In this document: positions 1-40,817 of the stretch, piece after piece | Numbering within the stretch: position 1 is the stretch's first letter | Layout of the letters: the number at the start of each line of letters is the position of its first letter | From: Halobellus captivus | GTDB lineage: Archaea; Halobacteriota; Halobacteria; Halobacteriales; Haloferacaceae | Direction of reading: 5' to 3' | Length of the DNA: 41,328 bases | NCBI RefSeq assembly: GCF_007655485.1 | Contig: NZ_VJXQ01000005.1 | Location: 184,063-225,390, forward strand | Made by a program: the position numbers and the translations under genes | The notes under the pieces: model-generated | Told to the model about the DNA's origin: nothing | Seen by the model: the letters and a program-made list of their open reading frames with translations, nothing else | The model's database searches: none

Positions 1-528
1 AATGAGAGAAGGATCCAAGAAGAGTGCCAGTGCAATGATTGCACGCTGCTGCATCCCACCAGAGAATTCGTGGGGATAATCGTGAATTCGGTTTTCCTGA
101 ATGCCGACAATCTCGAACATCTCCTTAAATTGATCGAGTGCCTCAGATTCGCTCATATCGGAGTGAGTGTTTGCGATCTCCAAGGCCTGCTTGCTGATCT
201 TCTTTAGCGGATCGAGCGAATCCATCGAACTCTGCGGCACGTAGGAGATCTCCTTCCATCGGATGTTTTCGTTCAGGTACTGTTGGGATTTATTTTGCAG
301 CTCCTCACCGTTGTATCTAATTGACCCTGCGCTAACGCGCCCGTTATCGTCCAGGATGCCTAACAGAGACTTTGCAACAGTTGACTTTCCGCACCCTGAT
401 TCACCCGCAAGTCCGAAGTATTCCCCCACATCTACAGCGAAGGAAGCGTCTGAGACAGCCGTGACGGCCCCGTTTTTGGTCTGATATTCGATCGTGAGGT
501 CCTCGATTTCGAGTAGTGGCTCGCTCAT
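1..528 (-). CDS. Oligopeptide/dipeptide ABC transporter ATPase, DppD type (3' end outside window)
   Basis: The first 176 residues of a cytoplasmic ATPase that powers an oligopeptide-type importer; the rest lies beyond the left edge. Visible are Walker A GESGCGKS (residues 42-49), a Q-loop Gln at about 99 and the ABC signature SGGMQ (156-160). The reading stops just before Walker B. It starts with ATG 24 nt after the stop of the upstream permease (553-1479), so the two are probably co-transcribed. It closely resembles the complete DppD at 5673-6701, which shares the motif positions and the DDNGR and WKEIS segments. By analogy with that complete system, a DppF-type ATPase and a DppB permease should follow to the left. 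DppD type is chosen over DppF by similarity to the paralogue. Confidence 0.93.
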   Translation of the reverse strand, partial: MSEPLLEIEDLTIEYQTKNGAVTAVSDASFAVDVGEYFGLAGESGCGKSTVAKSLLGILDDNGRVSAGSIRYNGEELQNKSQQYLNENIRWKEISYVPQSSMDSLDPLKKISKQALEIANTHSDMSESEALDQFKEMFEIVGIQENRIHDYPHEFSGGMQQRAIIALALFLDPSLI

Positions 529-552
529 TGTTTTGTGTAACTTATGTTTCTT

Positions 553-1479
553 TTATGCGGCCCCGTATGCCGCCGCGTCGCCATCGCCATCCCCGGCAAC
601 GTTTTCGTATCCTCGTCCGAGTGTATACAACGATAGTACTGTGAATGAGATCATCAGTCCGGGTGCGATCGCCCACGGCCAAGCCGTGGTGAGCCGACCC
701 GAATTGTACGCGTTTCTAATCATAATCCCCCAAGAGGGGACCGTCGGATCTGAGACGCCCAAGAACGCGAGTCCTGCTTGGAGGATAATCGTGTATCCAG
801 CACCCAACGCAAAGAACAGAAACGCCATCGGTAATACGTTCGGCAGTACGTGCTTGACGATAATGTATGGTGTACTTGCTCCCGCCGCCTTCGCGGAGAG
901 GATAAACGGCTGTTCACGTATCTGTAACGCCTGCGATCGGATAACCCTCGCACTCCCTCGCCAAAGCACTAGGCCGATCACAAGGATGGATTGAAAGAAT
1001 CCCACTCCAAGAATAGCGACGAGAACCAACGCGAACGGGATGACTGGCACTGCATACACCACGTCGGTAATTCGCATAAGCACGTCATCAGATCTACCAC
1101 CAACGTACCCCGAAGTCAGTCCCATAAACGAACCGATTGCGATGATCATCCCGCCACCCAGCAGACCGGTGATCGCTGTCGGCCTCGCACCCGCGACTAA
1201 TCGAGTCAGAACGTCGTATCCCGAGTCGGTAGTTCCAAGCGGGTGTGTAAGCGATGGTTCAGCAAGGCGAAGAAGCCCCCCATCTTCACCGCGTATCCGC
1301 TCGTCGTGGTCGTAGGGCATAATTGTCGGGCCGAAAAGCGCTAGGATCAGCAACGTTAACAGAAAGAGCATCGCGAGTTTCGTCGAACGCTCTCCGAGGG
1401 CTTTCCGGAAATCGGAATCCCCCAGTGCACCGCTGACATCAACCCTCGTTATTTTTCCCAATCCTGACCTGACATCCAT
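553..1479 (-). CDS. Oligopeptide/dipeptide ABC transporter permease, DppC type
   Basis: Integral membrane permease of 308 aa. An N-terminal hydrophobic helix lies at about 35-52, then the PLGTTDSGYDVLTRL segment typical of DppC/OppC, and a BPD_transp_1 domain with about five further helices. The cytoplasmic EAA loop is visible as AAGASTPYIIVKHVLPN, where the ATPase docks. It starts with ATG 25 nt downstream of a TATA element, so it may be transcribed separately from the binding-protein gene 150 nt upstream. By eye it is about 60% identical to the permease at 4741-5667. The substrate is unknown; family members move di- and oligopeptides, and in haloarchaea many such systems have uncharacterised substrates. 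Confidence 0.94.
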   Translation of the reverse strand: MDVRSGLGKITRVDVSGALGDSDFRKALGERSTKLAMLFLLTLLILALFGPTIMPYDHDERIRGEDGGLLRLAEPSLTHPLGTTDSGYDVLTRLVAGARPTAITGLLGGGMIIAIGSFMGLTSGYVGGRSDDVLMRITDVVYAVPVIPFALVLVAILGVGFFQSILVIGLVLWRGSARVIRSQALQIREQPFILSAKAAGASTPYIIVKHVLPNVLPMAFLFFALGAGYTIILQAGLAFLGVSDPTVPSWGIMIRNAYNSGRLTTAWPWAIAPGLMISFTVLSLYTLGRGYENVAGDGDGDAAAYGAA

Positions 1480-1503
1480 AGGAACCGGTAAACGCAGAAG
1501 TGG

Positions 1504-1509
1504 TATAAA
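1504..1509 (-). promoter_or_regulatory. TATA box of the DppC permease at 1479
   Basis: On the minus strand this reads TTTATA, beginning 25 nt before the ATG. That spacing suits a leaderless archaeal transcript. A second AT-rich stretch lies just upstream at 1511-1522. Confidence 0.55.
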
Positions 1510-1543
1510 GTTTTATTATATACACGCCATTCGCCCCGTGTGA

Positions 1544-1570
1544 TGACTCACACTCCTAGTGAGTGAGTCA
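1544..1570. other. Inverted repeat between binding protein and permease genes
   Basis: The arms TGACTCAC (1544-1551) and GTGAGTCA (1563-1570) are perfectly complementary, with an 11 nt loop. An alternative fold pairs CACT with AGTG inside the loop. It lies downstream of the binding-protein stop and upstream of the permease TATA. It could be an mRNA stem that protects the abundant binding-protein transcript, a processing site, or an operator. Confidence 0.4.
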
Positions 1571-1631
1571 GAACCAACGGTTTCTGGAGCGGCAAGCGAC
1601 AGGCTGAGGAGAGGGTTGCGACGGAAGACGA

Positions 1632-3458
1632 CTATTCAAACGTCATCTCGCCGTCACCGTTGATACAGCTGAAGTTCTCGGAAGTGGGTTCCTCGCCTGC
1701 TGGCCAGAGCGGGGAGGTGTCTGCATCTGCAGGATACCGTAGGACGCCATCGTTATCCCAGCCCCAACCAGCGTCTTCGAGCCGTTGCCGCGCGCCCTCG
1801 ATGTCACCAGTGACATCGTCGGTCATCTGATAGAGCATATCTTCCGGTGGACGCGATGGGTGTGATGGAAGGAATACAACCGAATGCAGCGTCTGCTCGG
1901 GTTCTGCCCCACCGTTCGCCGCCAGCTCATTCATGAGGGATCGATCCAAGGATTGACCAACAGCCGCACGGAATTCACGGAATTTGACCGGAGCTATCGG
2001 ATGCTGCGGAGCGAGATAGTGAGGCCACATTGAGGAGTTTATCACTGTCTCACCCGCGTCGAATTCCTCTTCGACTCGTTGGGCGGCACCGGCAGAGATA
2101 CTGCTCACGATTTCGAGTTCACCTGCGAGGAATGCTTCCATCACTGCGGATTCCTCAGTATAGGACACGTAATCGACGCCGTGACTCGGGTTGTGTACCG
2201 GATGTTCGTCCTCACGCGGATCCATCGAGAGGAACTCACCTTGCGTCCATTCCGTCACTTCAAACGGACCTGAGTTCACGAACGGGGGCGTGAACGTCTC
2301 TGGATCCTCCTCTGCGCCTGCTTCAGTCCATGCTGACTCGCTCACGATTCCCCAGCGGGGGAACTTCGTTGGAACGAAGGCCGGACGGGGGGATCCAAAC
2401 TGGAACGTGAGCGAGCGCTCGTCATTGACCTCGATCGTGTACTCCTCAGGTGGTTCGGCATACGGGTATACTCCGACGTTCGACCAGATGTGTTCGAAGG
2501 TGTATTTGACGTCGTTTGCCGTGACGGGATCTCCATTGCTGAACGTCGTCTCTCTGAGTTGAACGTCGATCTGTTGGGAATCCTCGGAAACTTGCCAGTC
2601 GTCTGCGAGGACCGGGGTTAACTCGAAGTTTTCATCGAATTCTGCGAGCGGCGAATGCAGATATGTATTGAGGCGTGCGAGTGCTGGTCCTGCGGATTGC
2701 TTGTAGTAATTCTTTAGTCTGAGGAGGGATGGATTGCCATTCACGGCAATTCGGTCTCCCTGCGTCGGAGTCGACTTGATTAACGGATATGGTGCCGTAT
2801 CATGGATTCCTGTTGTTCCGAGACCACCGATATCCACTCGTTCGGAGTTGTACGCACCCCGCAGGATATCGGGAAGAACTGGAATGAGCCCAACGTCTTC
2901 ACTCATCACCGAATGGGCTTGGTTGACGAGGTCTCGTCTCTCGTCAGGAGACGTGGCTGAACCTTGGGCCATCGCCAATTCTGAATACTCGCAGTTAGCG
3001 TAGTTTGCGAGGTTTGATTGGCCGTCTCCACCGGCCCAATCGATCGCCCAGCGGCGGGTCATCTGATGAGGATCTAACCGCATTGGGTTCATCCCCGAAG
3101 AGAAAAACGAGAAGTGCGAATTGCGCTGATCTTCAATAACGTTCTCGATCATCGTTCCGGCCGCAACCGGCCGGACATCCACGGAGACACCAAGAAGCTC
3201 TTCGAGGTTCTCGGTTATCACAGGGGCCATTGACTCTTGGTATGATGTCCAAGCAATATTCGCGTAGTACTCCACAGTGACCGGTTCGGGGACACGTTCA
3301 CCGAGATTCTGCCCGCCCCCACCGTCACCGCTACCTCCGTCTCCGGAGCCATCGCCGGAACTGTTTCCACCGCACCCGGCGAGCCCAGCCATTGCGAGGG
3401 CACCGATTGATCCTAACACTTTTCGTCGTGGTATGGTATCTCGTCGCCTGTCAGCCAT
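1632..3458 (-). CDS. Extracellular substrate-binding lipoprotein of an oligopeptide-type ABC importer, circularly permuted SBP_bac_5
   Basis: Binding protein of 608 aa. It has a Tat motif RRKVLG (11-16) and a lipobox ending in Cys29, so it should be exported folded and lipid-anchored. A Gly/Ser/Asp-rich linker (30-50) follows. The domain order is unusual. Residues about 60-215 (ending in the ANCEYSE, DERRDLVNQAH and EDVGLIPVL segments) match the part that is C-terminal in DppA/OppA. Residues about 235-330 (VLADDWQVSED, FSNGDPVTANDV) match the usual N-terminal lobe, and 490-575 (FREFRAAVGQSLDR, ARQRLEDAGW) match the usual middle-to-late segment, after which the protein ends. Cys156 and Cys598 are the only cysteines besides the lipobox. 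It is the first gene of the minus-strand transporter cluster and has its own TATA. Confidence 0.93.
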   Translation of the reverse strand: MADRRRDTIPRRKVLGSIGALAMAGLAGCGGNSSGDGSGDGGSGDGGGGQNLGERVPEPVTVEYYANIAWTSYQESMAPVITENLEELLGVSVDVRPVAAGTMIENVIEDQRNSHFSFFSSGMNPMRLDPHQMTRRWAIDWAGGDGQSNLANYANCEYSELAMAQGSATSPDERRDLVNQAHSVMSEDVGLIPVLPDILRGAYNSERVDIGGLGTTGIHDTAPYPLIKSTPTQGDRIAVNGNPSLLRLKNYYKQSAGPALARLNTYLHSPLAEFDENFELTPVLADDWQVSEDSQQIDVQLRETTFSNGDPVTANDVKYTFEHIWSNVGVYPYAEPPEEYTIEVNDERSLTFQFGSPRPAFVPTKFPRWGIVSESAWTEAGAEEDPETFTPPFVNSGPFEVTEWTQGEFLSMDPREDEHPVHNPSHGVDYVSYTEESAVMEAFLAGELEIVSSISAGAAQRVEEEFDAGETVINSSMWPHYLAPQHPIAPVKFREFRAAVGQSLDRSLMNELAANGGAEPEQTLHSVVFLPSHPSRPPEDMLYQMTDDVTGDIEGARQRLEDAGWGWDNDGVLRYPADADTSPLWPAGEEPTSENFSCINGDGEMTFE

Positions 3459-3482
3459 ACCCCTACCAATATGATAAGACGG

Positions 3483-3488
3483 TATAAA
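3483..3488 (-). promoter_or_regulatory. TATA box of the binding-protein gene at 3458
   Basis: On the minus strand this reads TTTATA, beginning 25 nt before the ATG. The spacing matches the TATA of the permease gene at 1479. It supports the annotated start and a leaderless transcript. Confidence 0.55.
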
Positions 3489-3604: not shown

Positions 3605-4558
3605 TCAGGGGCCACTACTGAGAATCGGATCCTCGGCTGCGTTGACCTCGATTTTCTCTTCGACTTCCAAGGCCTCATCGAGATACTGCTCGAAAACTTT
3701 GATTACTGCAGGTGCATTCTCTTTTGCGTACCCACTGGCCGCGGCCGCAGTATACAGTTGAAGTATCGACGTCATCACGTGCATTGGGAAATCAACGTCC
3801 TCTGCAGCCCGTAGAGCGTATCTGAGGTCTTTTTGTGTGTATTCGACGGGAAAACCGGGCTCAAAATCCCGATTAAGCGCCGATGGCATCAACACGCGAA
3901 ATGCTACCGAACTCCCGGCCCCGAATTTTAGTGTATCGAATAGATCACGCACATCGAGCCCCTGCGCTGCTCCCAACGAAAGTGCCTCCAGCGCAAGAAC
4001 GGTGTTTCCGAGCGAAATACAGTTGTTTACGAGCTTCGTTGTTTTCCCAGCACCGCTTTCGCCCATGTACTGTGTATGCCTAGCAATTGAACTAAAAACG
4101 GCTTGGACGTTATCATCATCGAATGCGCTTTTCGGGCCACCTACTGGCAGGAGTACTGTGCCATTCCTTGCATTATCTGGGCCTCCGAAAAATGGGGCAT
4201 CGAGCAGATCGATCCCGTGGGTTCGGAGGTCGGCGGCAAGTTCCCGCGTTGATTCCGGCGGAACAGTGCTCTGTTCGATGCAGATGAGGTCCTCGTGTGC
4301 TCCGTGGACAACTCCGTCATCCCCGAGATAAGCCGCTTCGACGATTTCCGGATAACTCAGTGCACTAAGGAGGATATCCACCTCTGAAGCGAGTTCCGCG
4401 TTTGATTCGGCAATCCGCCCACCGTGCGCTTCAAACTCTGCAAGGGCATCGTCTTGAATGTCGAAACCGATTACATCGAATCCCTCATCGACAAGATGGT
4501 ATGCGATGCCTCCTCCCATTCTTCCTAGCCCGATCTGCCCAACGGTAACTGATGCCAT
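3605..4558 (-). CDS. NAD(P)-dependent beta-hydroxyacid dehydrogenase (3-hydroxyisobutyrate dehydrogenase family)
   Basis: Soluble oxidoreductase of 317 aa. The N-terminal Rossmann fold has the GLGRMGG loop (10-16), followed by the DAPFFGG substrate-binding segment (120-126) and the catalytic-helix motif KLVNN with Lys175. The family oxidises 3-hydroxyisobutyrate, tartronate semialdehyde, 4-hydroxybutyrate or similar acids, or reduces the matching semialdehydes; the substrate cannot be read here. The start is ATG with an AT-rich element (4582-4589) about 25 nt upstream. It is divergent from the second ABC importer (4741) across 182 nt. A close paralogue lies at 22658-23605, sharing long blocks such as PSALNRDF and ILQLYTAAAASGYA. 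A role with the aldehyde dehydrogenases nearby is likely but unproven. Confidence 0.9.
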   Translation of the reverse strand: MASVTVGQIGLGRMGGGIAYHLVDEGFDVIGFDIQDDALAEFEAHGGRIAESNAELASEVDILLSALSYPEIVEAAYLGDDGVVHGAHEDLICIEQSTVPPESTRELAADLRTHGIDLLDAPFFGGPDNARNGTVLLPVGGPKSAFDDDNVQAVFSSIARHTQYMGESGAGKTTKLVNNCISLGNTVLALEALSLGAAQGLDVRDLFDTLKFGAGSSVAFRVLMPSALNRDFEPGFPVEYTQKDLRYALRAAEDVDFPMHVMTSILQLYTAAAASGYAKENAPAVIKVFEQYLDEALEVEEKIEVNAAEDPILSSGP

Positions 4559-4740
4559 ACAAATCGGTAAGGTGATCGCCTACAAATAGCTACTGATAGA
4601 TACTGCGAAAGTGATCGATGGAGAAGGCTGTAGCCTGCCACACTGGTCTCCGAAAAAGAGGTTTTCCGCCTAGCAAAAGTGGCAGTATATCAAGGTAAAA
4701 CCTATATGTAGGGGTTTCCTCATTGGGATTCAGAGGAAGA

Positions 4741-5667
4741 ATGGTTAAGAATAACCTCAGTCTGATGGATAATCGATTTGCCAACAATTACGTGGTGCGT
4801 AATGTAGTTGGATCTCTGAGACTTATGCTGGAAGACAAAGCGACAATGGTGTATTTCAGCTATCTCGTTTTTGTCTTGTTTCTCGGTGCGTTCGGACCAA
4901 TGCTCGCGCCTTACCCATACGATGAAACACTCTACGTGAATGGGGAAATACTCCGTTCGGCGCCACCGTCTCTCGCCCATCCACTGGGGACGAACAACAT
5001 CGGGCAGGATATCTTTTCTAGGCTCCTTTACGGAGCTCGGCCGACAATGATCACCGGTCTGCTCGGCGGATCAATGATTATTAGCATTGGAATGACCGTC
5101 GGTGTTACTGCCGGGTACGTCGGTGGCCGCGTCGACAATACGCTGATGCGAATTACTGATGTTGTGTACGGTGTCCCCCTCATCCCATTCGCGATCGTCC
5201 TCGTCTCGCTTTTCGGAATCGGATTTGTCCAATCAATCGTAGTGATCGGACTATTACTCTGGCGGGGGAATGCTCGAGTTCTCAGATCACAAGTGCTACA
5301 GATACGCGAGCGGCCCTTCATTCTAGCCAGCAAGGCGGCCGGTGCGAGTAGGACCAGAATCGTCTTCAAACACGTGTTACCAAATATTGCGCCGATGGCG
5401 GTGCTGTTTTTCTCGCTCGGTATCGGATTCAGCATCTTGATCCAAGCAACGCTCGCGTTCCTGGGGGTTACCAGTCCGTTTATTCCATCCTGGGGCGTTA
5501 TGGTTCGAAGTGCATACAACTCGGGATTGATGTCACAAGCTTGGTGGTGGTCGCTCCCGCCCGGATTGATGATCGCATTTACCGTACTTGCAACGTTTAT
5601 GTTCGGTCGTAGCTACGAGAACATCGCTGGACAGGGTAACGAAGAAGCGTTCGTACAGGCTGGATAA
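4741..5667 (+). CDS. Oligopeptide/dipeptide ABC transporter permease, DppC type (second system)
   Basis: Permease of 309 aa and first gene of a DppC-D-F-B operon. It has an N-terminal helix at about 35-55, the HPLGTNNIGQDIFSRLL segment, and a BPD_transp_1 domain with an EAA loop around KAAGASRTRIVFKHVLP. ATG 4741 is preferred over an in-frame TTG at 4723. A TATA-like CTATATG (4702-4708) lies 33 nt upstream, and a GAGGA element sits shortly before the ATG, so a short leader is expected. The next gene starts 5 nt after the stop. Similarity to the permease at 553-1479 extends over nearly the whole length, which suggests duplication of a complete importer. Confidence 0.94.
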   Translation: MVKNNLSLMDNRFANNYVVRNVVGSLRLMLEDKATMVYFSYLVFVLFLGAFGPMLAPYPYDETLYVNGEILRSAPPSLAHPLGTNNIGQDIFSRLLYGARPTMITGLLGGSMIISIGMTVGVTAGYVGGRVDNTLMRITDVVYGVPLIPFAIVLVSLFGIGFVQSIVVIGLLLWRGNARVLRSQVLQIRERPFILASKAAGASRTRIVFKHVLPNIAPMAVLFFSLGIGFSILIQATLAFLGVTSPFIPSWGVMVRSAYNSGLMSQAWWWSLPPGLMIAFTVLATFMFGRSYENIAGQGNEEAFVQAG

Positions 5668-5672
5668 TCACA

Positions 5673-6701
5673 ATGACTACACCACTACTTGAAGCCGAAA
5701 ACCTCACAGTCCAGTACGAAACAGCGAACGGGATGTTGACCGCTGTTTCCGATGCCTCGTTTACGATTAACACCAGCGAGTATTTCGGGCTCGTCGGCGA
5801 ATCTGGATGCGGAAAGAGCACGATAACCAAGGCAGCATTAGGGGGCCTTGATGATAACGGACGGATTACGGCCGGAAAGATCCGTTACAAGGGTGAAGAG
5901 ATACAGGATTACACCGAGAAGGAATTCAATGAGAAGCTCCGGTGGAAAGAGATCTCGTGGATCCCGCAGGGGTCGATGAACAGTTTGGACCCCCTACAGC
6001 GAATCAGCGAACAGGCGGCAATGATCGCGAGAGTCCACACAGATCTCAGCAAAGATGAGGCGGTTGAACGCCTCCGTGAGATGTTCGATATCGTTGGCCT
6101 TCCGAAGGAACGGGTGACGGACTACCCGCACCAATTCTCCGGCGGGATGCAACAGCGTGCGGTCATTGCACTCGCTCTGTTTCTTCGACCCTCCCTCCTG
6201 ATCGCCGATGAACCGACGACTGCCCTTGACGTCATTATGCAGGATCAGGTGTTCAAATATCTCAACGAGATCAAACAGGACGGGGAGATTGGAATGCTCC
6301 TCATCACCCACGATATCAGTCTTGTTTTCGAATCTTGCGACCGGATGTCGGTGATGCACGCAGGACAGATATCCGAAACCGGCACTGTCGAAACCATCTA
6401 CGAGGAACCTCACCACCCCTATACGATCCTCCTCAAGGAGGCTTTTCCCGATCTCCGTTATCCGGATCGCGAACTCGGTATCATCGAAGGGAACCCTCCG
6501 CAGAATATGGGGGAGGTCGACTACTGCACGTTCGTCGACCGCTGCCCGTGGGCAGTCCCCGAGTGTCAGGAACAAGCGCCCTCACTGGAACCTGTTGGCG
6601 GAGACGAAGATCATCCGGTGTCTTGTTTCAGGCGAGAAGAAGTCCTCGAGGAGTACCGCGCTGAAAACGAAACTGTGGCGCAGACTGGGGGTGACCAATG
6701 A
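5673..6701 (+). CDS. Oligopeptide/dipeptide ABC transporter ATPase, DppD type
   Basis: ATPase subunit of 342 aa. It has Walker A GESGCGKS (42-49), Q-loop Gln99, signature SGGMQ (156-160), Walker B LLIADE (175-180) and H-loop His213. The C-terminal oligo_HPY extension carries the Cys-containing segment CTFVDRCPWAVPEC and a final conserved Cys. That extension marks peptide/nickel-type transporters. The gene begins 5 nt after the permease and its last codons overlap the DppF start by 4 nt (ATGA), so translation is probably coupled. All catalytic motifs are intact. Confidence 0.96.
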   Translation: MTTPLLEAENLTVQYETANGMLTAVSDASFTINTSEYFGLVGESGCGKSTITKAALGGLDDNGRITAGKIRYKGEEIQDYTEKEFNEKLRWKEISWIPQGSMNSLDPLQRISEQAAMIARVHTDLSKDEAVERLREMFDIVGLPKERVTDYPHQFSGGMQQRAVIALALFLRPSLLIADEPTTALDVIMQDQVFKYLNEIKQDGEIGMLLITHDISLVFESCDRMSVMHAGQISETGTVETIYEEPHHPYTILLKEAFPDLRYPDRELGIIEGNPPQNMGEVDYCTFVDRCPWAVPECQEQAPSLEPVGGDEDHPVSCFRREEVLEEYRAENETVAQTGGDQ

Positions 6702-7756
6702 CGGAGAACGCGGGGCCGGTCCTCGAGACGCAGAACCTCGAGAAGTACTTCGATCAAAGCACAAGCATAATTGATACGCTCCTGCGCAGGGAGAACGAGA
6801 AGGTACAGGCAGTCGACGGGGTGTCGATTGCGCTTGACAGTAACGAGTCTCAGGGTGTCATCGGCGAGAGCGGATGTGGCAAAACGACCCTCCTCAAGAC
6901 GCTGATGGGGCTCTACCAACCGACAAATGGAAAGATTCTATTCAAGGGCAATGATACGGCCGAATTCGGCCGAAAAGACTGGAAGGAGTTCCGCCGCAAC
7001 GTTCAGATCATTTTCCAGGATCCCTTCGATTCACTCGACCCGAAGCTGACCATTCGAGAAACGCTCGAAGAGCCACTCAAGATACACAACATCTCAAACG
7101 TTGACGAGCGTATCGTCGATATCCTCGAACAAGTGGAGCTCAACCCACCGGAAAAGTATCTCGATCGGTTCCCCCGACAGATGAGTGGCGGAGAACTCCA
7201 GCGTGTCTCAATCGCCCGTGCGCTTATTTTGGAGCCAGAAGTTATCCTTGCGGACGAGCCGGTCTCAATGCTCGACGTCTCGACTCAGGCATCGATTTTG
7301 AATTTGCTTTCGGAGTTAGTCGATGAACTGGACGTGTCGATGTTCTACATTTCTCACGACCTTTCGACGGTATCGTACGTCTGTGACCGGATTAACGTGA
7401 TGTACCTTGGACGGATCGTTGAATCTGCACCCACCAGTGAGTTGTTAGAAGATCCACAACACCCGTACTCCCAAGCATTGATCGATGCAGTTCCGATTCC
7501 GGACCCGAAGTACAACCGTGGCTACACAACGCTAGAAGGCGATGTACAGAACCCCGTCGGAATCGGAGACGGGTGTCGGTTTCGAGATCGATGTCCCGAT
7601 CGAATGGACGTCTGTGAGCAGACGCCCAAGTTCATCGACGTCGAATCGGATGATGACCGGAAGGTGGCTTGCCACCTGTATTATGATCATCCACAGCATA
7701 CGGAAACAGCGCATACAGACGAGGAGCAACAGGAACCGGAGGTGTCCGCACAATGA
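6698..7756 (+). CDS. Oligopeptide/dipeptide ABC transporter ATPase, DppF type
   Basis: Second ATPase of the importer, 352 aa. It has Walker A GESGCGKT (56-63), a Q-loop in IIFQDPFDSLDP, signature SGGEL (163-167), Walker B VILADE (182-187) and H-loop His220. The C-terminal oligo_HPY region has CRFRDRCPDRMDVC and a later Cys. It overlaps dppD by 4 nt. The DppF assignment rests on the FQDP-SLDP form of the Q-loop and the second position in the ATPase pair. The 79 nt before the DppB gene contain only a weak imperfect GC-rich stem. Confidence 0.96.
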   Translation: MTENAGPVLETQNLEKYFDQSTSIIDTLLRRENEKVQAVDGVSIALDSNESQGVIGESGCGKTTLLKTLMGLYQPTNGKILFKGNDTAEFGRKDWKEFRRNVQIIFQDPFDSLDPKLTIRETLEEPLKIHNISNVDERIVDILEQVELNPPEKYLDRFPRQMSGGELQRVSIARALILEPEVILADEPVSMLDVSTQASILNLLSELVDELDVSMFYISHDLSTVSYVCDRINVMYLGRIVESAPTSELLEDPQHPYSQALIDAVPIPDPKYNRGYTTLEGDVQNPVGIGDGCRFRDRCPDRMDVCEQTPKFIDVESDDDRKVACHLYYDHPQHTETAHTDEEQQEPEVSAQ

Positions 7757-7835
7757 TGTTACAACCGACTAGTAAACCCGCCGATTGCGGGGTTCGTACA
7801 GTGCTTAATCAGAACCATTCGCTGGGTGATCACCG

Positions 7836-8828
7836 ATGAGCCGCGTTCGTTACGTCGCTTTCAGGTCCGTACAGACGGTCGTCTTACTGTTCTTGATCCT
7901 GACGTTCTTGTTTTTCTTCTTCAGGATGCTCCCCGGTTCCTACGCAGATCTGATGGCGTTTCAAGGCGCAAACGAGGCGACCGTTGAAGCAATGCAAGAA
8001 AAATGGGGGTTGAACGACCCGCTGTACGTCCAGTATTTCCGATATGTCACTAACCTCCTGACAGGTGACGCTGGATCGTCACTCCAGTTCCGAATCCCCG
8101 TTTGGGACTTCGTGAAGATGAAAATCTTCAACTCACTTCTCCTTGTTGGCCCCGCGATCACGGTTGGCTACATCTTCGGTACCTTGATCGGTGGATTCCT
8201 CGGGAACAGACGGGGATCAAAGGAAGAGAAATATGGTCTGATCCCGCTCATCCTGACCGGATCATTCCCATCGTTCGTCACAGCAATTATGTTTATCATC
8301 GTGTTCGCGGGATGGCTAAACTTGGTGCCGACGTCCGGAATGTTCGGCTTTTCCAACCCGTACAACAGCAGCGAATTCGCGTGGTGGCGGCCCTACTTAA
8401 CCAAAGACTTCGCAATCCACTACGCGCTGCCGTTCCTGACGATCGTGGCCAGATATACCTACCTACCGGCACTCGTTATGCGAACCAACGTCGTTGAGGT
8501 CCTTGGGCAGGACTTCTTCTACTATCACAGGATGACTGGTCTTCCTGGAGAACAGCAACTCAAACGGCTGATGAACCACGCAATCCTCCCAGTCGTCACG
8601 CTGTACCCGATCTCGATGACGCGAGCCATCGGAGGTCTCGTCGTGATCGAAATGGTCTTCAACTGGCCAGGAATTGGCTACGCACTCGTACAGGCTGTGT
8701 TCGCCCGTGACTTCCCGGTGGTACAATTCGTTTTCTTCTTAGTCGCAACCTTCGTCGTCGTCGGGAACTTCGCGGTCGATATCCTGTACGGCTACATCGA
8801 CCCACGAGTCTCAGTCGATAACAACTAA
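7836..8828 (+). CDS. Oligopeptide/dipeptide ABC transporter permease, DppB type
   Basis: Permease of 330 aa with about six membrane helices. The N-terminal helix at about 10-32 is followed by the FRMLPGSYADLM segment, the LNDPLYVQYFRYVTNLLTGD loop typical of DppB, and an EAA loop around GLPGEQQLKRLMNHAILP. Placing DppB last (C-D-F-B) differs from the usual bacterial A-B-C-D-F order. A T-rich stretch right after the stop (8840-8846) may serve as an archaeal terminator. Together with 4741-7756 it forms a complete membrane and energy module without its own binding-protein gene in the same direction. Confidence 0.95.
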   Translation: MSRVRYVAFRSVQTVVLLFLILTFLFFFFRMLPGSYADLMAFQGANEATVEAMQEKWGLNDPLYVQYFRYVTNLLTGDAGSSLQFRIPVWDFVKMKIFNSLLLVGPAITVGYIFGTLIGGFLGNRRGSKEEKYGLIPLILTGSFPSFVTAIMFIIVFAGWLNLVPTSGMFGFSNPYNSSEFAWWRPYLTKDFAIHYALPFLTIVARYTYLPALVMRTNVVEVLGQDFFYYHRMTGLPGEQQLKRLMNHAILPVVTLYPISMTRAIGGLVVIEMVFNWPGIGYALVQAVFARDFPVVQFVFFLVATFVVVGNFAVDILYGYIDPRVSVDNN

Positions 8829-11274: not shown

Positions 11275-12678
11275 CTATGACGTTCCAGCAGGAGGCTGCT
11301 CTCCTTGTTTGGCTTTGGCACGCTTCGCAGCGTGTTTACCTGCAGTTCGACCAGTAGCGAGACCGAGAGAGAGCCCAAGGTGGTAATAGCTGTGATCTTC
11401 AGAACGACCGACTTCGATCCCAGCGGCGTACAGACCCGGAATCGGTTCGATGCTAATCTGGGTCATATCCGTCGGAACGTACTCCAGTCCGGTTGTCGAT
11501 CGCTGCTGTGAGACTACCTCTGCATTATGATTAATGTCGAGTCCACCGCGGATGTACACGATAGTTGGTTGAACCGCGATCGCATAGAACGGTGGTTCAT
11601 CGATCGCATACCGGTTATCCTCCCTTGGTGGTCGAAGCCGCTCGTCGCTCTCGCCGCGGACGGCTGCGTTGAACGTCCTGATCGTCTCCACCGCTTGATA
11701 GCCATCCGCGCCGAGTTCATCGAGTCCGTTCCCTAACTCCTCAAGCGTCTCAGCCTCGACGACGGGCGCACCTGCATCTCGTGCGCCCTCAACGAGTGTT
11801 CCGATTTTGGGGCTGAAGGCCATTTGATCCGTATGGGACTCGTAGATATCGTGATCTAAGACGAGATACCCGTCTTCCTCGACGTTGTTGAGGAACTGTG
11901 AGACGAGACCGGTTGATCCGCTCACGGCTTTCGACTCGTCGGTGAATCGGATACCGTCGGCGTTGAGAATAACCGTTTGGTCCCGGTATACGGTACTTGT
12001 GTCTCGACGGTTGTCGTCTGTGATCTGAGCAGGCGGCGCTGGTCGAACCCCGCCCAGCGCGTTCGAGAGCCCTCGCGTGGTCTTCGCACCGATGTTTCGT
12101 GCTGCGATGAAGCCCTCTCCCGTTGACCACGGGTGGCGGCCATTCCAGATATTTGAGTGCGGAAAATACTGTTCGATGAGATCCGCGTTTCCACTGAACC
12201 CGCCGGTCGCCAAGATTACGCTGGCTGCATTAATCTCGAATTTTCCATTCTCGTTGTGGGCAACCACACCAGAGATTTCATCCTCGTCGTCAAGTTTCAG
12301 TCGCTTGAACGCCGTCTCCCTGTGGATCTCGCCGCCGTTCTCCTCGATTAACGCTGCCATCTCGTCGATGAACTGTAACGTATCTATCCGACCGATCCGT
12401 TCGGCATCGTCAGTCAACCACCGATCATCGGGATCATTGACGGAGATTCCATGATCTCTTAGCCATTCGATTCCCGTTTCGACCGGCTCAAACACGTCAA
12501 TCGCTGGATCTTTGTTCTTCTCTACGGCGAACGTGCCGCCAGTTACTGGGAGTGTCCCCCCTAGTGTGGGAGCTTTTTCGAGCAAAACCACGTTTTCGCT
12601 GTACTCTAACGATCGAAGGGTCGACACGAGCCCAGCAATACCTCCGCCGACAACGACTACGTCCGCATCGAAGTCCAT
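11275..12678 (-). CDS. FAD-dependent oxidoreductase, FAD_binding_2 (fumarate reductase/succinate dehydrogenase flavoprotein-like)
   Basis: Flavoprotein of 467 aa. The dinucleotide-binding loop is VVGGGIAG (9-16), followed by EKAPTLGGT and a TGG segment. The C-terminal FAD-contacting motif is IPGLYAAGIEVGR and then LGLSLGLATGRTAG. A PPFYAIAVQPTIVY segment precedes GGLDIN, as in fumarate-reductase-like domains. The family includes fumarate reductases, 3-ketosteroid dehydrogenases and tricarballylate dehydrogenase, all of which make or reduce an activated C=C bond. There is no signal peptide, so it is probably cytoplasmic. It is about 45% identical by eye to the paralogue at 24422-25810. The substrate is unknown; an unsaturated or saturated carboxylic acid fits the neighbourhood. 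Confidence 0.9.
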   Translation of the reverse strand: MDFDADVVVVGGGIAGLVSTLRSLEYSENVVLLEKAPTLGGTLPVTGGTFAVEKNKDPAIDVFEPVETGIEWLRDHGISVNDPDDRWLTDDAERIGRIDTLQFIDEMAALIEENGGEIHRETAFKRLKLDDEDEISGVVAHNENGKFEINAASVILATGGFSGNADLIEQYFPHSNIWNGRHPWSTGEGFIAARNIGAKTTRGLSNALGGVRPAPPAQITDDNRRDTSTVYRDQTVILNADGIRFTDESKAVSGSTGLVSQFLNNVEEDGYLVLDHDIYESHTDQMAFSPKIGTLVEGARDAGAPVVEAETLEELGNGLDELGADGYQAVETIRTFNAAVRGESDERLRPPREDNRYAIDEPPFYAIAVQPTIVYIRGGLDINHNAEVVSQQRSTTGLEYVPTDMTQISIEPIPGLYAAGIEVGRSEDHSYYHLGLSLGLATGRTAGKHAAKRAKAKQGEQPPAGTS

Positions 12679-22657: not shown

Positions 22658-23605
22658 TTAGGCGGTGTAAACCGGGTCGTCAATGTCAACTTCGACCTCG
22701 TCATCAGATTCGAGGGAGCTTCCTGTCCACTCCTCGAATACCTTCACCACGGCACTAGATCCTTCGTCGGCGTATCCGCTCGCCGCGGCAGCAGTGTAGA
22801 GCTGCAGTATCGAATTCGTAACGTGCATTGGGAAGTCGATGTCTTCGCCAGCCCGGAGCGCAAACCGAAGATCCTTTTGTGAAGATTTCACCGGGAAGCT
22901 CGGGGAGAAATCCCGGTTCAGCGCAGACGGCACCGCAACCCTAAACATCACCGAACTACCCGCACCATACTTCAGCGTTTCAAAGAGGTCCTGACTGTCG
23001 AGGCCTTGCGCTACGCCCAGTGACAGTGCTTCGAGTGAAAGGACCACGTGTCCTAGCGCCATGATATTGCTCACAAGCTTCGTCGCTTTTCCGTTCCCGA
23101 CGGCACCCATATAATGGAACTCCCGTGACATTGAAGCCAACACTGACTGGATGTCTTCATCGTCGTATAGTGCTCTGTCGCCGCCGATGGGTAGCACCAT
23201 CGTCCCATTTCGGGCGAATTGTGGCCCGCCAGAGAGAAATGGAGCATCCAACATTTCAATACCTCGCTCGTCGAGTTCCTTTGCGAGCTGTCTCGCTGGT
23301 TCTGGTGGGATCGTACTCTGTTCGATGCACACTAGTCCGTCGTGGGCACCCTCAACGATTCCGCCGTCCCCAAGGTACACCTCTTCGACGATTTCGGGGT
23401 AATTGAGTGCGGTTAGGAGAATATCTGACTCTGCAGCGACTTCGGCTCCCGAAGCAGCGATGTCACCACCGTATTCGGAAAGTGAATCGCAAGCCTCCTC
23501 ACTGATGTCGAACCCGAGTACGTCAAAGCCATCATCTATCAGACACTTAGCCACACTTCCGCCCATACTTCCAAGTCCTATCTGGCCAACAGTAATCTCC
23601 GGCAT
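22658..23605 (-). CDS. NAD(P)-dependent beta-hydroxyacid dehydrogenase, second paralogue
   Basis: 3-hydroxyisobutyrate dehydrogenase-family enzyme of 315 aa. It has the Rossmann loop GLGSMGG (10-16), DAPFLSGGP substrate segment (120-128) and KLVSN with catalytic Lys176; the first Asn of the usual KxxNN motif is Ser here. ATG 23605 is used because the TATA ATATAA (23626-23631) lies just upstream; the longer frame from 23647 would overlap it. Identity to the protein at 3605-4558 is roughly 55-60% by eye over the whole length, with shared blocks PSALNRDF and FPMHV. It is divergent from the thioredoxin-like gene across 122 nt. It probably handles a related but not identical hydroxyacid. Confidence 0.9.
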   Translation of the reverse strand: MPEITVGQIGLGSMGGSVAKCLIDDGFDVLGFDISEEACDSLSEYGGDIAASGAEVAAESDILLTALNYPEIVEEVYLGDGGIVEGAHDGLVCIEQSTIPPEPARQLAKELDERGIEMLDAPFLSGGPQFARNGTMVLPIGGDRALYDDEDIQSVLASMSREFHYMGAVGNGKATKLVSNIMALGHVVLSLEALSLGVAQGLDSQDLFETLKYGAGSSVMFRVAVPSALNRDFSPSFPVKSSQKDLRFALRAGEDIDFPMHVTNSILQLYTAAAASGYADEGSSAVVKVFEEWTGSSLESDDEVEVDIDDPVYTA

Positions 23606-23625
23606 AGCGCTGAATTCTCTTCGTG

Positions 23626-23631
23626 ATATAA
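23626..23631 (-). promoter_or_regulatory. TATA box of the second beta-hydroxyacid dehydrogenase gene
   Basis: TTATAT on the minus strand, about 23 nt before ATG 23605. It supports that start over the longer frame. Confidence 0.5.
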
Positions 23632-23727
23632 GTATTTGTTGGGGCATTACCGGTAAGTGGGGTACTGAACGAGAGGATTGGAACGGGGATCAATATTTAA
23701 CCGGCAGTAATCCCAAGCCCCGATCGT

Positions 23728-24411
23728 ATGAATGCCGAACCTCACGTCGATCCCGAAAACCTCCTCGAATCCCTGATCGAGGCAGGCGTATTCCAGTTGC
23801 AAGCCGACTCAATCGCGTTTTCTGATGATTTTCTCCGAGAACTCGATCGGACACGTGATCGCCTGAACGGAACGAGTCGGGACGACAAGCGACCCATCGT
23901 CGATGCAGTGACAACGGACGCAACAGAAACAGACACTCTACTAACGCTGAGTGATCAAGTACCAGCTATCGTTCCCGAATATCTGACGCTCGCCGAACAG
24001 ACCGGTTTGACACACACCGACCGGTTGCGGACACTCCCGTTCTTCGATACCGTTCTCAATTCTCCGCCAGACGGAGGTGCCCCCGAAGCGTTCGTTTCAA
24101 TCTCTGGAGAGCGACTCCCGCTCTACGTACTGCTTCACGATACGGCGATCATTTACGTTTGGCGCGACGATTGCCCGCCATGTGAAGAGGTACGCACAAC
24201 CTTCGACGCCATATTTGATTCTGCACCAACTGATATTGCACTCTTTGCGACCTATGGGCCTGACGCCGCAAAAAAATTGGATGAATGGTACGATGTGGTC
24301 GGCGGACCCGCGACGCTATTTTTCTCCGATGGGCAGGTCGAAGCACGAATGTATGGTGCGTACGCCCAGTCCGTCTTGGAGACGGAGATCGATCGTCATC
24401 GAACCGACTAA
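23728..24411 (+). CDS. Thioredoxin-fold protein with CPPC motif and N-terminal helical extension
   Basis: Protein of 227 aa without signal peptide. The C-terminal half (about 128-225) is a thioredoxin fold: a beta strand IIYVWRDD, then CPPC (149-152) starting a helix, and the cis-Pro loop VGGPATLFF with Pro194. The first 125 residues are mostly helical and acidic and are not recognised. They may be a partner-binding domain, as in haloarchaeal thioredoxin-like proteins. A TATA (TATTTAA, 23694-23700) supports ATG 23728. It is convergent with the second flavoprotein (10 nt between stops). A role in thiol/disulfide maintenance of a catabolic enzyme is possible but speculative. Confidence 0.78.
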   Translation: MNAEPHVDPENLLESLIEAGVFQLQADSIAFSDDFLRELDRTRDRLNGTSRDDKRPIVDAVTTDATETDTLLTLSDQVPAIVPEYLTLAEQTGLTHTDRLRTLPFFDTVLNSPPDGGAPEAFVSISGERLPLYVLLHDTAIIYVWRDDCPPCEEVRTTFDAIFDSAPTDIALFATYGPDAAKKLDEWYDVVGGPATLFFSDGQVEARMYGAYAQSVLETEIDRHRTD

Positions 24412-24421
24412 CGGCAGCGCC

Positions 24422-25810
24422 TCAGTGTTGACCGGATACCGTCTGTTTCGCCCGCTTCGCTGCGTGCTCTCCTGCCACTCGTCCCGCCGCAAGTCCAAGT
24501 GAAAGGCCACCGCCATAGTAACCTTCCTCCGTGCGTTTTCCAACCTCAACTCCGGCGGCATACAATCCTGGAATGGGTTCCCGTGCAGACTCACCGTTTG
24601 TTTCCGGCTTATACGGTAGTGTGCTTGTAGAGACCGTACGAGACACAACCTGGGCATTTTCATCGATATCGAGGCCGCCGACAAAATACAAAATGGCTGG
24701 CAGCACCTTGACTGCGTAGAACGGTGCACGGTCGATCGGATCCCGGTACCCTTCCCGTGGTGGTTGGAGTGCCGTGTCGCGTTCACCGCGAACAACGGCG
24801 TTGAACTCTGTAATTGTCTTGTGGACCTGATCCCCGTCGACGCCCTGTGCATCAAGTTTATCACACAGTTGATCGAGAGAGTCGGTCTGGATTACCGTAC
24901 CGCCAAACTCCCGGGCCATTTCAAGCCGTTCTTCGACTGTGCTTTGGTACCGACTATCCATCTCGTATATGTCCTGATCGATGATCAGGTAGACCTCGCC
25001 TTCAACGTCCTTCAGATAATCCTTCACGAATTTATCACTCTGGGAGGCGGAGGCCGATTCATCCGTGAATCGATATCCCTCGGTCGTGACTGCGATTGAT
25101 GACGTGTCGTATATCTGCCCACAACGCATATCCTCGAACGCGATCTCTGCTGGCGGTGAGGGACGTGTTACCCCGATCGGCTCGGAGAGATTTTCGGTAG
25201 ACTTCGCTCCCACCTCTTTCGCCGCGAAATACCCGTCGCCCGTTGACCACGGATCACGCCCCAAAAGGAGGTCAGAGTGTGGAAAGTACTCTGAGAGGAT
25301 CGCTCCGTTCGCGCTCCGACCACCGGCAGCGAGAACGACACTTGGCGCGTTGATCTCAAACGGCTCGTTTTCCGGCGTGGCTGCGACCACACCGGTAACC
25401 TCTCCGTCTTCATCAGTACGCAATTCCTTGAACGGCGTTTCGGTCAGCAACTCTCCACCCATCTCCTCGATAAGCTCCTGCATTCGATCGGCAAACTGAG
25501 GTGGATTGATCCGAATCCGCGACGTTACGGATTCTCCGTGCTCCCATTCCTGCATCCGGTTGACCTCGACGTCGTTACCTTCGAGCCACTGCAGCCCGTC
25601 TTCGATCGGTTCAGATAGGTCGACGTTTCGGTCTGCGTCTTCGTCGACCGCGATGTACCCTCCTGTGACACGTGTCGTCCCACCAACCTTGTCTCCTTTT
25701 TCCAGCACAATCACGTCTGCACCCTCTTCAAGCGCTCTAACCGCAGAAACAAGGCCACCCATTCCCGATCCGACGACTACGACATCAGTGTTTCGACTCT
25801 CTAGACGCAT
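24422..25810 (-). CDS. FAD-dependent oxidoreductase, FAD_binding_2, second paralogue
   Basis: Flavoprotein of 462 aa. It has VVGSGMGG (12-19) for the FAD ADP moiety, EKGDKVGGTTRVTGG, a PFYAVKVLPAILYFVGGLDI segment, and the C-terminal IPGLYAAGVEVGK plus GGGLSLGLAAGRVAG. As with the first paralogue it belongs with fumarate reductase, ketosteroid dehydrogenase and tricarballylate dehydrogenase flavoproteins. There is no signal peptide and no heme motif (CxxCH), so electrons must come from or go to a separate carrier; the ETF pair at 33584-35325 is one candidate. A TATA (CATATA at 25835-25840, minus strand) lies 25 nt before the ATG. Confidence 0.9.
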   Translation of the reverse strand: MRLESRNTDVVVVGSGMGGLVSAVRALEEGADVIVLEKGDKVGGTTRVTGGYIAVDEDADRNVDLSEPIEDGLQWLEGNDVEVNRMQEWEHGESVTSRIRINPPQFADRMQELIEEMGGELLTETPFKELRTDEDGEVTGVVAATPENEPFEINAPSVVLAAGGRSANGAILSEYFPHSDLLLGRDPWSTGDGYFAAKEVGAKSTENLSEPIGVTRPSPPAEIAFEDMRCGQIYDTSSIAVTTEGYRFTDESASASQSDKFVKDYLKDVEGEVYLIIDQDIYEMDSRYQSTVEERLEMAREFGGTVIQTDSLDQLCDKLDAQGVDGDQVHKTITEFNAVVRGERDTALQPPREGYRDPIDRAPFYAVKVLPAILYFVGGLDIDENAQVVSRTVSTSTLPYKPETNGESAREPIPGLYAAGVEVGKRTEEGYYGGGLSLGLAAGRVAGEHAAKRAKQTVSGQH

Positions 25811-39416: not shown

Positions 39417-40763
39417 TCACCGACTGCGATCCTCTGCGTCATCGTTTCCTAGCTTGATTTCGATCGGCTCGCCAGGCTTGAGGTTCGTGCTGGCGATTAG
39501 GTCCGGATTCGGGTCGGATGACAGTTCGAACGTGTACTCTCCGAGAATCGTCGCTAGGACGACCTTCATCTCCATCCGTGCGAAGCGCATCCCGATACAG
39601 TGACGGGGCCCACCACCGAACGGGAAGTACGCGTATTCTGGCCTGTCGGTATCGCTGGCGAACCGTTCCGGACGGAACGTCTCAGGATCGTCCCACCACT
39701 TCGAGTCACGGTGGACAGCCCATTGTGGTATGACTAACGTCGTGCCAGCAGGAATATCGAAGACCTGTAGTTCTACGTCCTGCGTCGCTTCGCGGAAGAA
39801 CATATACACTGGAGGATAGAGACGCAGCGCCTCGTCGATCACGGACTCCAGTCGTTCGAGTTCCGGTAGGCTTTCTGCGGTTACGACGCCCTCACAGACC
39901 GCACCCACTTCGGCTTGGAGCTTGGCTTGCTCGTCGGGGTGCTGAGCGAGACAGAGTAATGTGTACGTCAGTCCTAGAGCCGTCGTCTCGTGCCCCGCAA
40001 AGAGGAACGTAACGATGTTATCACGGAGCTCTTCTTGGGTCAAATCGCCTGCCTCGACAAAGTTCACGAGGATCGATAGTAGGTCATCGCCACGGTTCTC
40101 GGGGTGTTGTTCCCGGCGCCGGTCGGCTAGCTCATCAACGAACGTCTGGAGTTCGGTGAGTTTCCGTCTATACCGCCGATTCGTCGGTGTTGGAATCCGG
40201 TCTGGAAGAAACGACCAGAACCGACTCGTATCGAATCGTGCGAGGATTGCATCCGATGCCTCCGAAATGACGGGGTTCTCCGTCACATCCACACCGAATA
40301 ACGTCCGACCGAGCACGTCGATCGTCGTCCTAGTCATCCAGTCGTTAACGTCGACGACCATCCCGTCGCGCCACTGTTCGACTGTCTCTGCTGCAGTAGC
40401 ACGCATCTCGGGGACGTACGTGTTCAATTGTTCGCGGTAGAACGCTGGTTGTATCTGCGTCCGCTGGTTCCGCCACTGATCGCCGCCGGTCAAAAATACC
40501 CCTTCTCCCATCGCGTCGGAGAGGTTCCGGGTTAGAACCTCACCTTTCTCGAAAGCCTCGTGGTTGTCAAGGAGCACCTGCTGGATCGCATTCGGGTGGG
40601 CGACCATACACGCGTCTGTCCCGAATACTTCGTAGCTTGCGACGCGACCATAGTCATCACGCAACTGCTCATAAAAATCGAGGATGTCACGGCTCAAATC
40701 AACAGTGTTGCCGATAACTGGCAGTCCGCGTGGACCGGGAGGATATGTCACTTTTGAACTCAT
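39417..40763 (-). CDS. Cytochrome P450
   Basis: Heme monooxygenase of 447 aa. Signature elements are the proline-rich start YPPGPRGLPVIGN, the I-helix oxygen-binding AGHETT (256-261), EALR (311-314) for ExxR, FRPERF (363-368), and the heme loop FGGGPRHCIG with ligand Cys389. It has no membrane anchor, so it is probably soluble and needs ferredoxin partners encoded elsewhere. ATG 40763 is preferred; the frame extends to a GTG at 40814 but has no domain sequence there. It is divergent from the Bat-like gene across 87 nt, in which an AT-rich element (40818-40824) could serve both directions. Confidence 0.93.
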   Translation of the reverse strand: MSSKVTYPPGPRGLPVIGNTVDLSRDILDFYEQLRDDYGRVASYEVFGTDACMVAHPNAIQQVLLDNHEAFEKGEVLTRNLSDAMGEGVFLTGGDQWRNQRTQIQPAFYREQLNTYVPEMRATAAETVEQWRDGMVVDVNDWMTRTTIDVLGRTLFGVDVTENPVISEASDAILARFDTSRFWSFLPDRIPTPTNRRYRRKLTELQTFVDELADRRREQHPENRGDDLLSILVNFVEAGDLTQEELRDNIVTFLFAGHETTALGLTYTLLCLAQHPDEQAKLQAEVGAVCEGVVTAESLPELERLESVIDEALRLYPPVYMFFREATQDVELQVFDIPAGTTLVIPQWAVHRDSKWWDDPETFRPERFASDTDRPEYAYFPFGGGPRHCIGMRFARMEMKVVLATILGEYTFELSSDPNPDLIASTNLKPGEPIEIKLGNDDAEDRSR

Positions 40764-40817
40764 ATATACGTATTTTCGATACTCGAACTCCGGCTTTCTG
40801 TCGGACACGTCCACCTC

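Follow-up and report, generated by a model that had tools for sequence, protein, structure and literature searches.

Within the periplasmic binding protein (PBP) superfamily, types I and II reportedly differ in topology through a domain dislocation, and permuted halves of the ribose-binding protein are said to have been engineered. Natural circular permutants are few, and the sole solved case found among lipoprotein solute-binding proteins (SBPs) is TpMglB-2 (Tp0684) of Treponema pallidum, a natural, lipid-tethered and circularly permuted SBP with proven glucose binding (PMC4990184). Its authors proposed a subclass for this cluster B permutant (PMC4990184). No described circular permutant of cluster C, the cluster of the family-5 SBPs (PF00496), was found in the open-access literature searched, and TpMglB-2 is the nearest precedent for the proteins considered here, although it belongs to another SBP class.

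A protein of the archaeon Halobellus captivus, here called P0001, is very probably a circularly permuted lipoprotein that catches the substrate for a Dpp/Opp-type ABC importer. It shares with the canonical SBPs DppA (1dpp), AppA of B. subtilis (1xoc), NikA and OppA both blocks of the chain, the predicted fold class, the lipoprotein or secreted form and the DppBCDF partners. Unlike in these proteins, the blocks of P0001 are swapped, and its termini would lie in lobe II instead of lobe I. P0001 resembles TpMglB-2 in being a natural, lipid-tethered and apparently permuted SBP, whereas the latter has a type I/cluster B fold, an unrelated cut site and a fourth hinge crossing (PMC4990184). Moreover, the permuted part of TpMglB-2 shows only 13% identity to its proposed equivalent (PMC4990184), whereas the blocks of P0001 are clearly homologous to theirs and its hinge crossings would number two. 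The top fold and sequence matches of P0001 all belong to family 5, which places it outside the TpMglB-2-like class (type Ic/cluster Bc). As in the PBP dislocation and the ribose-binding protein halves, topology has changed within the periplasmic binding protein superfamily; those changes are deep or engineered, whereas the class of P0001 is family-level and recurrent, with one event apparently lying within a genus.

P0001 is encoded in the window, which is the whole stretch of 41,328 nucleotides analysed, and its gene lies on the minus strand, for which the earlier note had given no strand. The features are collected in Table 1. Residues 11-29, RRKVLGSIGALAMAGLAGC, read as a putative twin-Arg/lipobox signal and are followed by the Gly/Ser/Asp linker.

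Table 1. Coordinates of P0001, its putative parts and the associated importer genes in the window
Feature	Position	Strand	Basis or remark
DppD-like ATPase	1..528	minus	operon continues past the left edge of the window (L206)
DppC-like permease	553..1479	minus	downstream of the P0001 gene, same operon
P0001 (608 aa), probable circularly permuted family-5 solute-binding lipoprotein	1632..3458	minus	
P0001 C-terminal tail, residues 580-608	1635..1721	minus	alignment; conserved in the haloarchaeal subfamily only
P0001 residues ~231-579, canonical opening block (DppA 14-339), ending in LEDAGWGWDNDG	1722..2768	minus	profile and secondary-structure matches
P0001 residues ~55-225, canonical block from after LLKEAG to the C-terminus (DppA 356-497)	2784..3296	minus	profile and sequence matches
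P0001 Gly/Ser/Asp linker, residues 30-52	3303..3371	minus	sequence
P0001 twin-Arg type signal and lipobox, residues 1-29, Cys29 as putative tether point	3372..3458	minus	inferred from motif
Second importer, DppC-DppD-DppF-DppB	4723..8828	plus	convergent with the P0002 gene
P0002, second permuted SBP, 614 aa	9276..11120	minus	41-43% identical to P0001

The Pfam SBP_bac_5 profile (PF00496) matches P0001 with an E-value of 1.2e-48 and 166.6 bits (cut-off 32.4). It does so in two stretches, the best of which sets residues 279-579 on profile positions 1-288 of 368; a single collinear SBP_bac_5 match to P0001 was not found. Using P0001 as a single sequence, phmmer aligned residues 278-513 with 56-292 and residues 60-197 with 342-468 of CtaP (5isu), and residues 271-449 with 56-250 and 75-194 with 379-489 of DppE (8ay0). 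The single-sequence matches of the N-terminal block are weak (E 0.01-0.2), as would be expected if residues 60-215 were an additional domain of unrelated origin, placed before a family-5 chain just truncated past LEDAGW. A profile built from 63 homologues of P0001, in contrast, assigns this block to the complementary part of the fold that such a truncation would lack. Its positions 204-510 match residues 14-339 of E. coli DppA (E 3.5e-61) and its positions 26-172 match residues 356-497 (E 1.7e-18); the two blocks are swapped, non-overlapping and jointly cover the canonical DppA chain. AppA is swapped in the same manner, with an E-value of 6e-16 for the N-terminal block. Thus, the proposal in the earlier note that residues 60-215 represent the C-terminal block of DppA-type proteins was borne out as homology (E 2e-18 against DppA with the family profile). 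In addition, the order of secondary-structure elements fits after rotation, and an operon that is still intact would be unlikely to retain a truncated fold without much of lobe II. The unrelated-domain reading is very improbable, being contradicted at the sequence level by the family-profile matches to DppA and AppA.

Among the best PDB matches, no chain was collinear with the family profile. In the fetched set of open reading frames (ORFs), the swapped order occurs in 139 ORFs, some genes being counted twice, and the canonical order in 59, and a number as large as 139 excludes chance. Since its blocks are swapped, P0001 is best regarded as a permuted variant of SBP_bac_5/cluster C instead of a regular member. 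That P0001 is a circular permutant of this fold had been claimed from its sequence in the earlier note, which also proposed a search for two profile matches in swapped order and a structure prediction. Both matches were found, with DppA, AppA and other family-5 SBPs, and the claim gains further support from a confident AlphaFold model.

Given an alignment of 63 permuted proteins as input, AlphaFold2 predicted a single fold for the mature P0001 chain (mean pLDDT 95.1, pTM 0.92). The canonical archaeal relative L182 was modelled as a control (pLDDT 89.5, pTM 0.88), and family-5 SBPs are the best PDB matches of both models in Foldseek. Sequential TM-scores (TMq) lie at 0.31-0.47 for nearly all top matches of the P0001 model, with 240-390 columns aligned, and at 0.70-0.92 for those of L182, with about 500 columns; this contrast serves as a control of kind because the two are different proteins and not a matched pair. 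The low sequential score of P0001 is as expected for a permuted chain, which can be aligned in order only in part. When the secondary structure of P0001 was scanned against the canonical model over rotations (mean score 326, sd 80), the native order scored 279 and the best rotation 518.6. The peak falls at mature residue 180, i.e., residue 231 of the P0001 protein, and the secondary-structure string of the high-confidence model fits the canonical one only after rotation at that point.

Two details of the earlier description need correction. The chain was said to stop just past ARQRLEDAGW; about 42 more residues follow in P0001, beginning with GWDNDGVLRYPAD and comprising a conserved hairpin and then the subfamily-specific tail. 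Both lobes were said to be left intact by the cut, which holds for the fold and fails for the chain. Lobe II of DppA spans about residues 261 to 478, so the cut (DppA ~340/~355) interrupts the stretch of chain that forms lobe II. Going by the known domain borders of DppA, the permutation would make lobe I continuous and split lobe II, the reverse of the arrangement in DppA.

A young case of the same rearrangement is found within one archaeal genus of the same phylum, in which three genomes carry a permuted SBP (L125, L126, L127) and sister genomes carry a canonical SBP gene (L182-L185) instead. The canonical chain of this genus runs signal - AITIGVTDK...AGYSEDNK - LKLELWWTP...FRYYLIYEV, and the permuted chain runs signal - LKIELWWTP...FRYYLVYSEEQK - DTITIGVTDK...AGYSE. 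Block by block, the permuted and canonical proteins are 83-92% identical. As both blocks are that close to one canonical orthologue, permutation of one gene does occur at this site, and the identity of about 85-90% to the canonical sisters makes this recent event, judged by sequence, real beyond reasonable doubt. In two of the genomes (G300 and G339) the only match of the permuted gene is itself, so that it appears to have replaced the canonical gene there. Values of dN/dS are mostly 0.02-0.07 in all comparisons among L125-L127 and L182-L185, permuted pairs included, indicating that selection keeps the recently permuted gene. Its neighbourhood is unlike that of the canonical sister gene; in G300 it lies divergently beside DppBCDF. 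In canonical numbering, the cut is at 326/327 in the recent group, near 326-336 in the main clade of permuted sequences and at 328 in a further permuted SBP (L128), and the recent cut falls in the same loop as the haloarchaeal one.

The recent case also bears on the possibility that block 55-225 came from another family-5 SBP and was fused before a truncated one, so that P0001 would be a chimera produced by domain shuffling and not a one-gene permutation. In the ancient haloarchaeal and bacterial clade the blocks are too diverged to reveal a common parent gene, as shuffling would allow. Nevertheless, the two blocks of the recent permutants share a single canonical orthologue as their match, at 83-92% identity, and the halves of a chimera would have to fit each other by chance; shuffling is accordingly considered improbable, and one-gene permutation is the preferred reading.

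The permuted form is not confined to P0001. The genome of Halobellus captivus holds five SBP_bac_5 genes, two canonical and three permuted, and the latter comprise the two in the window and the distant P0003 (locus L005). A match to P0001 was detected in 175 of 195 genomes of the same taxonomic order, and many of these matches span the full length in collinear fashion; in a sample of the phylum at least 17 of the 32 matching genomes of the order have a full-length collinear match to the permuted profile. A pattern scan of 84,980 species returned 67 loci with the permuted order in all but a few, L096 and L099 surfacing as canonical controls. Permuted SBPs are present in haloarchaea and in at least six bacterial phyla (Pseudomonadota, Bacillota, Spirochaetota, Chloroflexota, Actinomycetota and Myxococcota), and the cut lies in the same loop across the haloarchaeal and bacterial proteins. 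In each of six bacterial genomes, a single full-length match of about 570-640 bits falls on the permuted gene, and the remaining SBP5 genes give mainly two-piece matches in the opposite order. Collinear matches to the permuted protein also occur on plasmids of haloarchaea, Maritalea and Neorhizobium, where annotated ones are labelled merely 'ABC transporter substrate-binding protein'. Two permuted SBP genes stand in tandem in Halarchaeum nitratireducens (L049 5826-9630). Permuted SBPs are therefore a large recurrent class, which the earlier note missed by treating P0001 as one odd protein.

An artefact of assembly, gene model or rearrangement in the Halobellus captivus genome would have to account for three permuted members on two contigs, for an identical block order in numerous independent genomes, plasmids and single-contig assemblies, for open reading frames throughout and for purifying selection in the recent case. 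Nothing in its favour came to light. The probability left to such an artefact is minute, and the independent genomes with the same order rule it out.

The number of origins was addressed with a tree built from de-permuted sequences, from whose midpoint rooting no direction was inferred. The label permuted or canonical changes at least four times on this tree, and the starred branches force at least two changes. Placing all permuted sequences in one clade was rejected (AU p 0.0067), as was joining the main clade and L128 (AU p 0.014, for a group named after the tree had been seen), which supports at least two independent permutations as far as sequences can tell. The haloarchaeal L135, L165 and L166 are cut one element earlier, leaving the LLKEAG helix at the N-terminus; a single origin of the main clade and the L135 group was not rejected (AU p 0.14), so no extra event is claimed for this group despite its earlier cut. 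The main clade intermixes sequences from bacteria and haloarchaea, with moderate support, and this mixing points to transfer between Archaea and Bacteria. L128 (G359) is a permuted SBP of 588 aa with the C-terminal tail TPGFGVIAVIAGVMAATYLLRRRR, which by eye resembles an archaeal C-terminal membrane anchor of the PGF type.

The permuted form arose more than once, probably when a gene was duplicated in tandem and in frame and the outer pieces were then lost. Leftover duplicate pieces were searched for beside the recently permuted genes, and none were found. One ORF (L139; G281:C18:9900-14400, ORF 410-3487) encodes 1026 residues in which two canonical family-5 SBPs, both complete, are joined head to tail in frame; a DppB gene follows. 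It looks permuted only in that its best matches fall on different copies; as a tandem fusion of canonical SBPs it was rejected as a permuted gene and left out of the second tree. As it comes from another lineage, it only shows that the intermediate needed by duplication and trimming exists.

By computation, the two family-5 blocks have exchanged places, with the former termini joined via a short linker and the new termini placed in the loop that leads from the LLKEAG helix to the following strand of lobe II. By homology, the product should be the same two-lobed clamp, closing on its solute and docking on DppBC. Topology suggests that the chain still crosses the hinge twice and that the lipid tether after Cys29 sits on lobe II instead of lobe I.

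The genomic context is that of an importer. The operon of P0001 reads SBP-DppC-DppD-DppF-DppB and extends leftward beyond the window. Flanking DNA was sufficient at 54 permuted loci; DppB or DppC lies within about 6 kb in 51 of them, and DppB, DppC and an ATPase together in 47. With importer genes beside them, the economical reading is that the permuted SBPs are most likely functioning catchers of Dpp/Opp-type importers. They could instead now act as receptors or sensors that no longer serve an importer, as L078, L088 and L101, which have no importer nearby, and P0003, whose 4-kb locus has no ORF for a permease, might suggest. Against this stands the complete set at 47 of 54 loci, which both copies in the window share, and a switch to sensing appears quite unlikely compared with a retained role in import.

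The dipeptide contacts of DppA are R383 and D436 (PMC12136057). Unlike DppA, the permuted family has no Asp at the D436 position in its profile, and a nearby Arg, two residues upstream of the conserved DP, is instead retained almost without exception in the close permuted family; the R383 position falls just ahead of the profile-aligned block. The neighbourhood of P0001 encodes hydroxyisobutyrate-type dehydrogenases, MmgE/PrpD, an HpcH/HpaI lyase, a CoA-transferase-like protein and FAD oxidoreductases. These catabolic genes faintly suggest an organic acid or a derivative of one as the ligand, rather than a plain dipeptide.

Positions 1-34000 of the window form a catabolic island with paired gene copies, which looks like a block duplication. 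The pairs include the two Dpp importers with permuted SBPs, hydroxyisobutyrate-type dehydrogenases (3605-4558 and 22658-23647), FAD oxidoreductases (11275-12678 and 24422-25810), two aldehyde dehydrogenases and two MmgE/PrpD proteins. To the left of the window (L206 1-4523), a further MmgE/PrpD and a PGA_cap-like protein adjoin the first operon; a 231-aa protein there resembles by look the product of window positions 23728-24411, and the L206 genes echo the right part of the window. A cytochrome P450 gene lies at 39417-40814.

A bolder proposal, which is rather doubtful, is that the permuted SBPs form a large class across Archaea and Bacteria, generated repeatedly at one hot spot in the loop of lobe II and selected because moving the tether from lobe I to lobe II would alter the way in which the importer meets its catcher. 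A whole class of permuted SBPs has been hidden behind the annotation 'ABC transporter substrate-binding protein'; pipelines that rely on collinear domains misread its members. The recent event, with both forms in one genus, offers a natural test of how permutation affects folding, ligand binding, tethering and transport.
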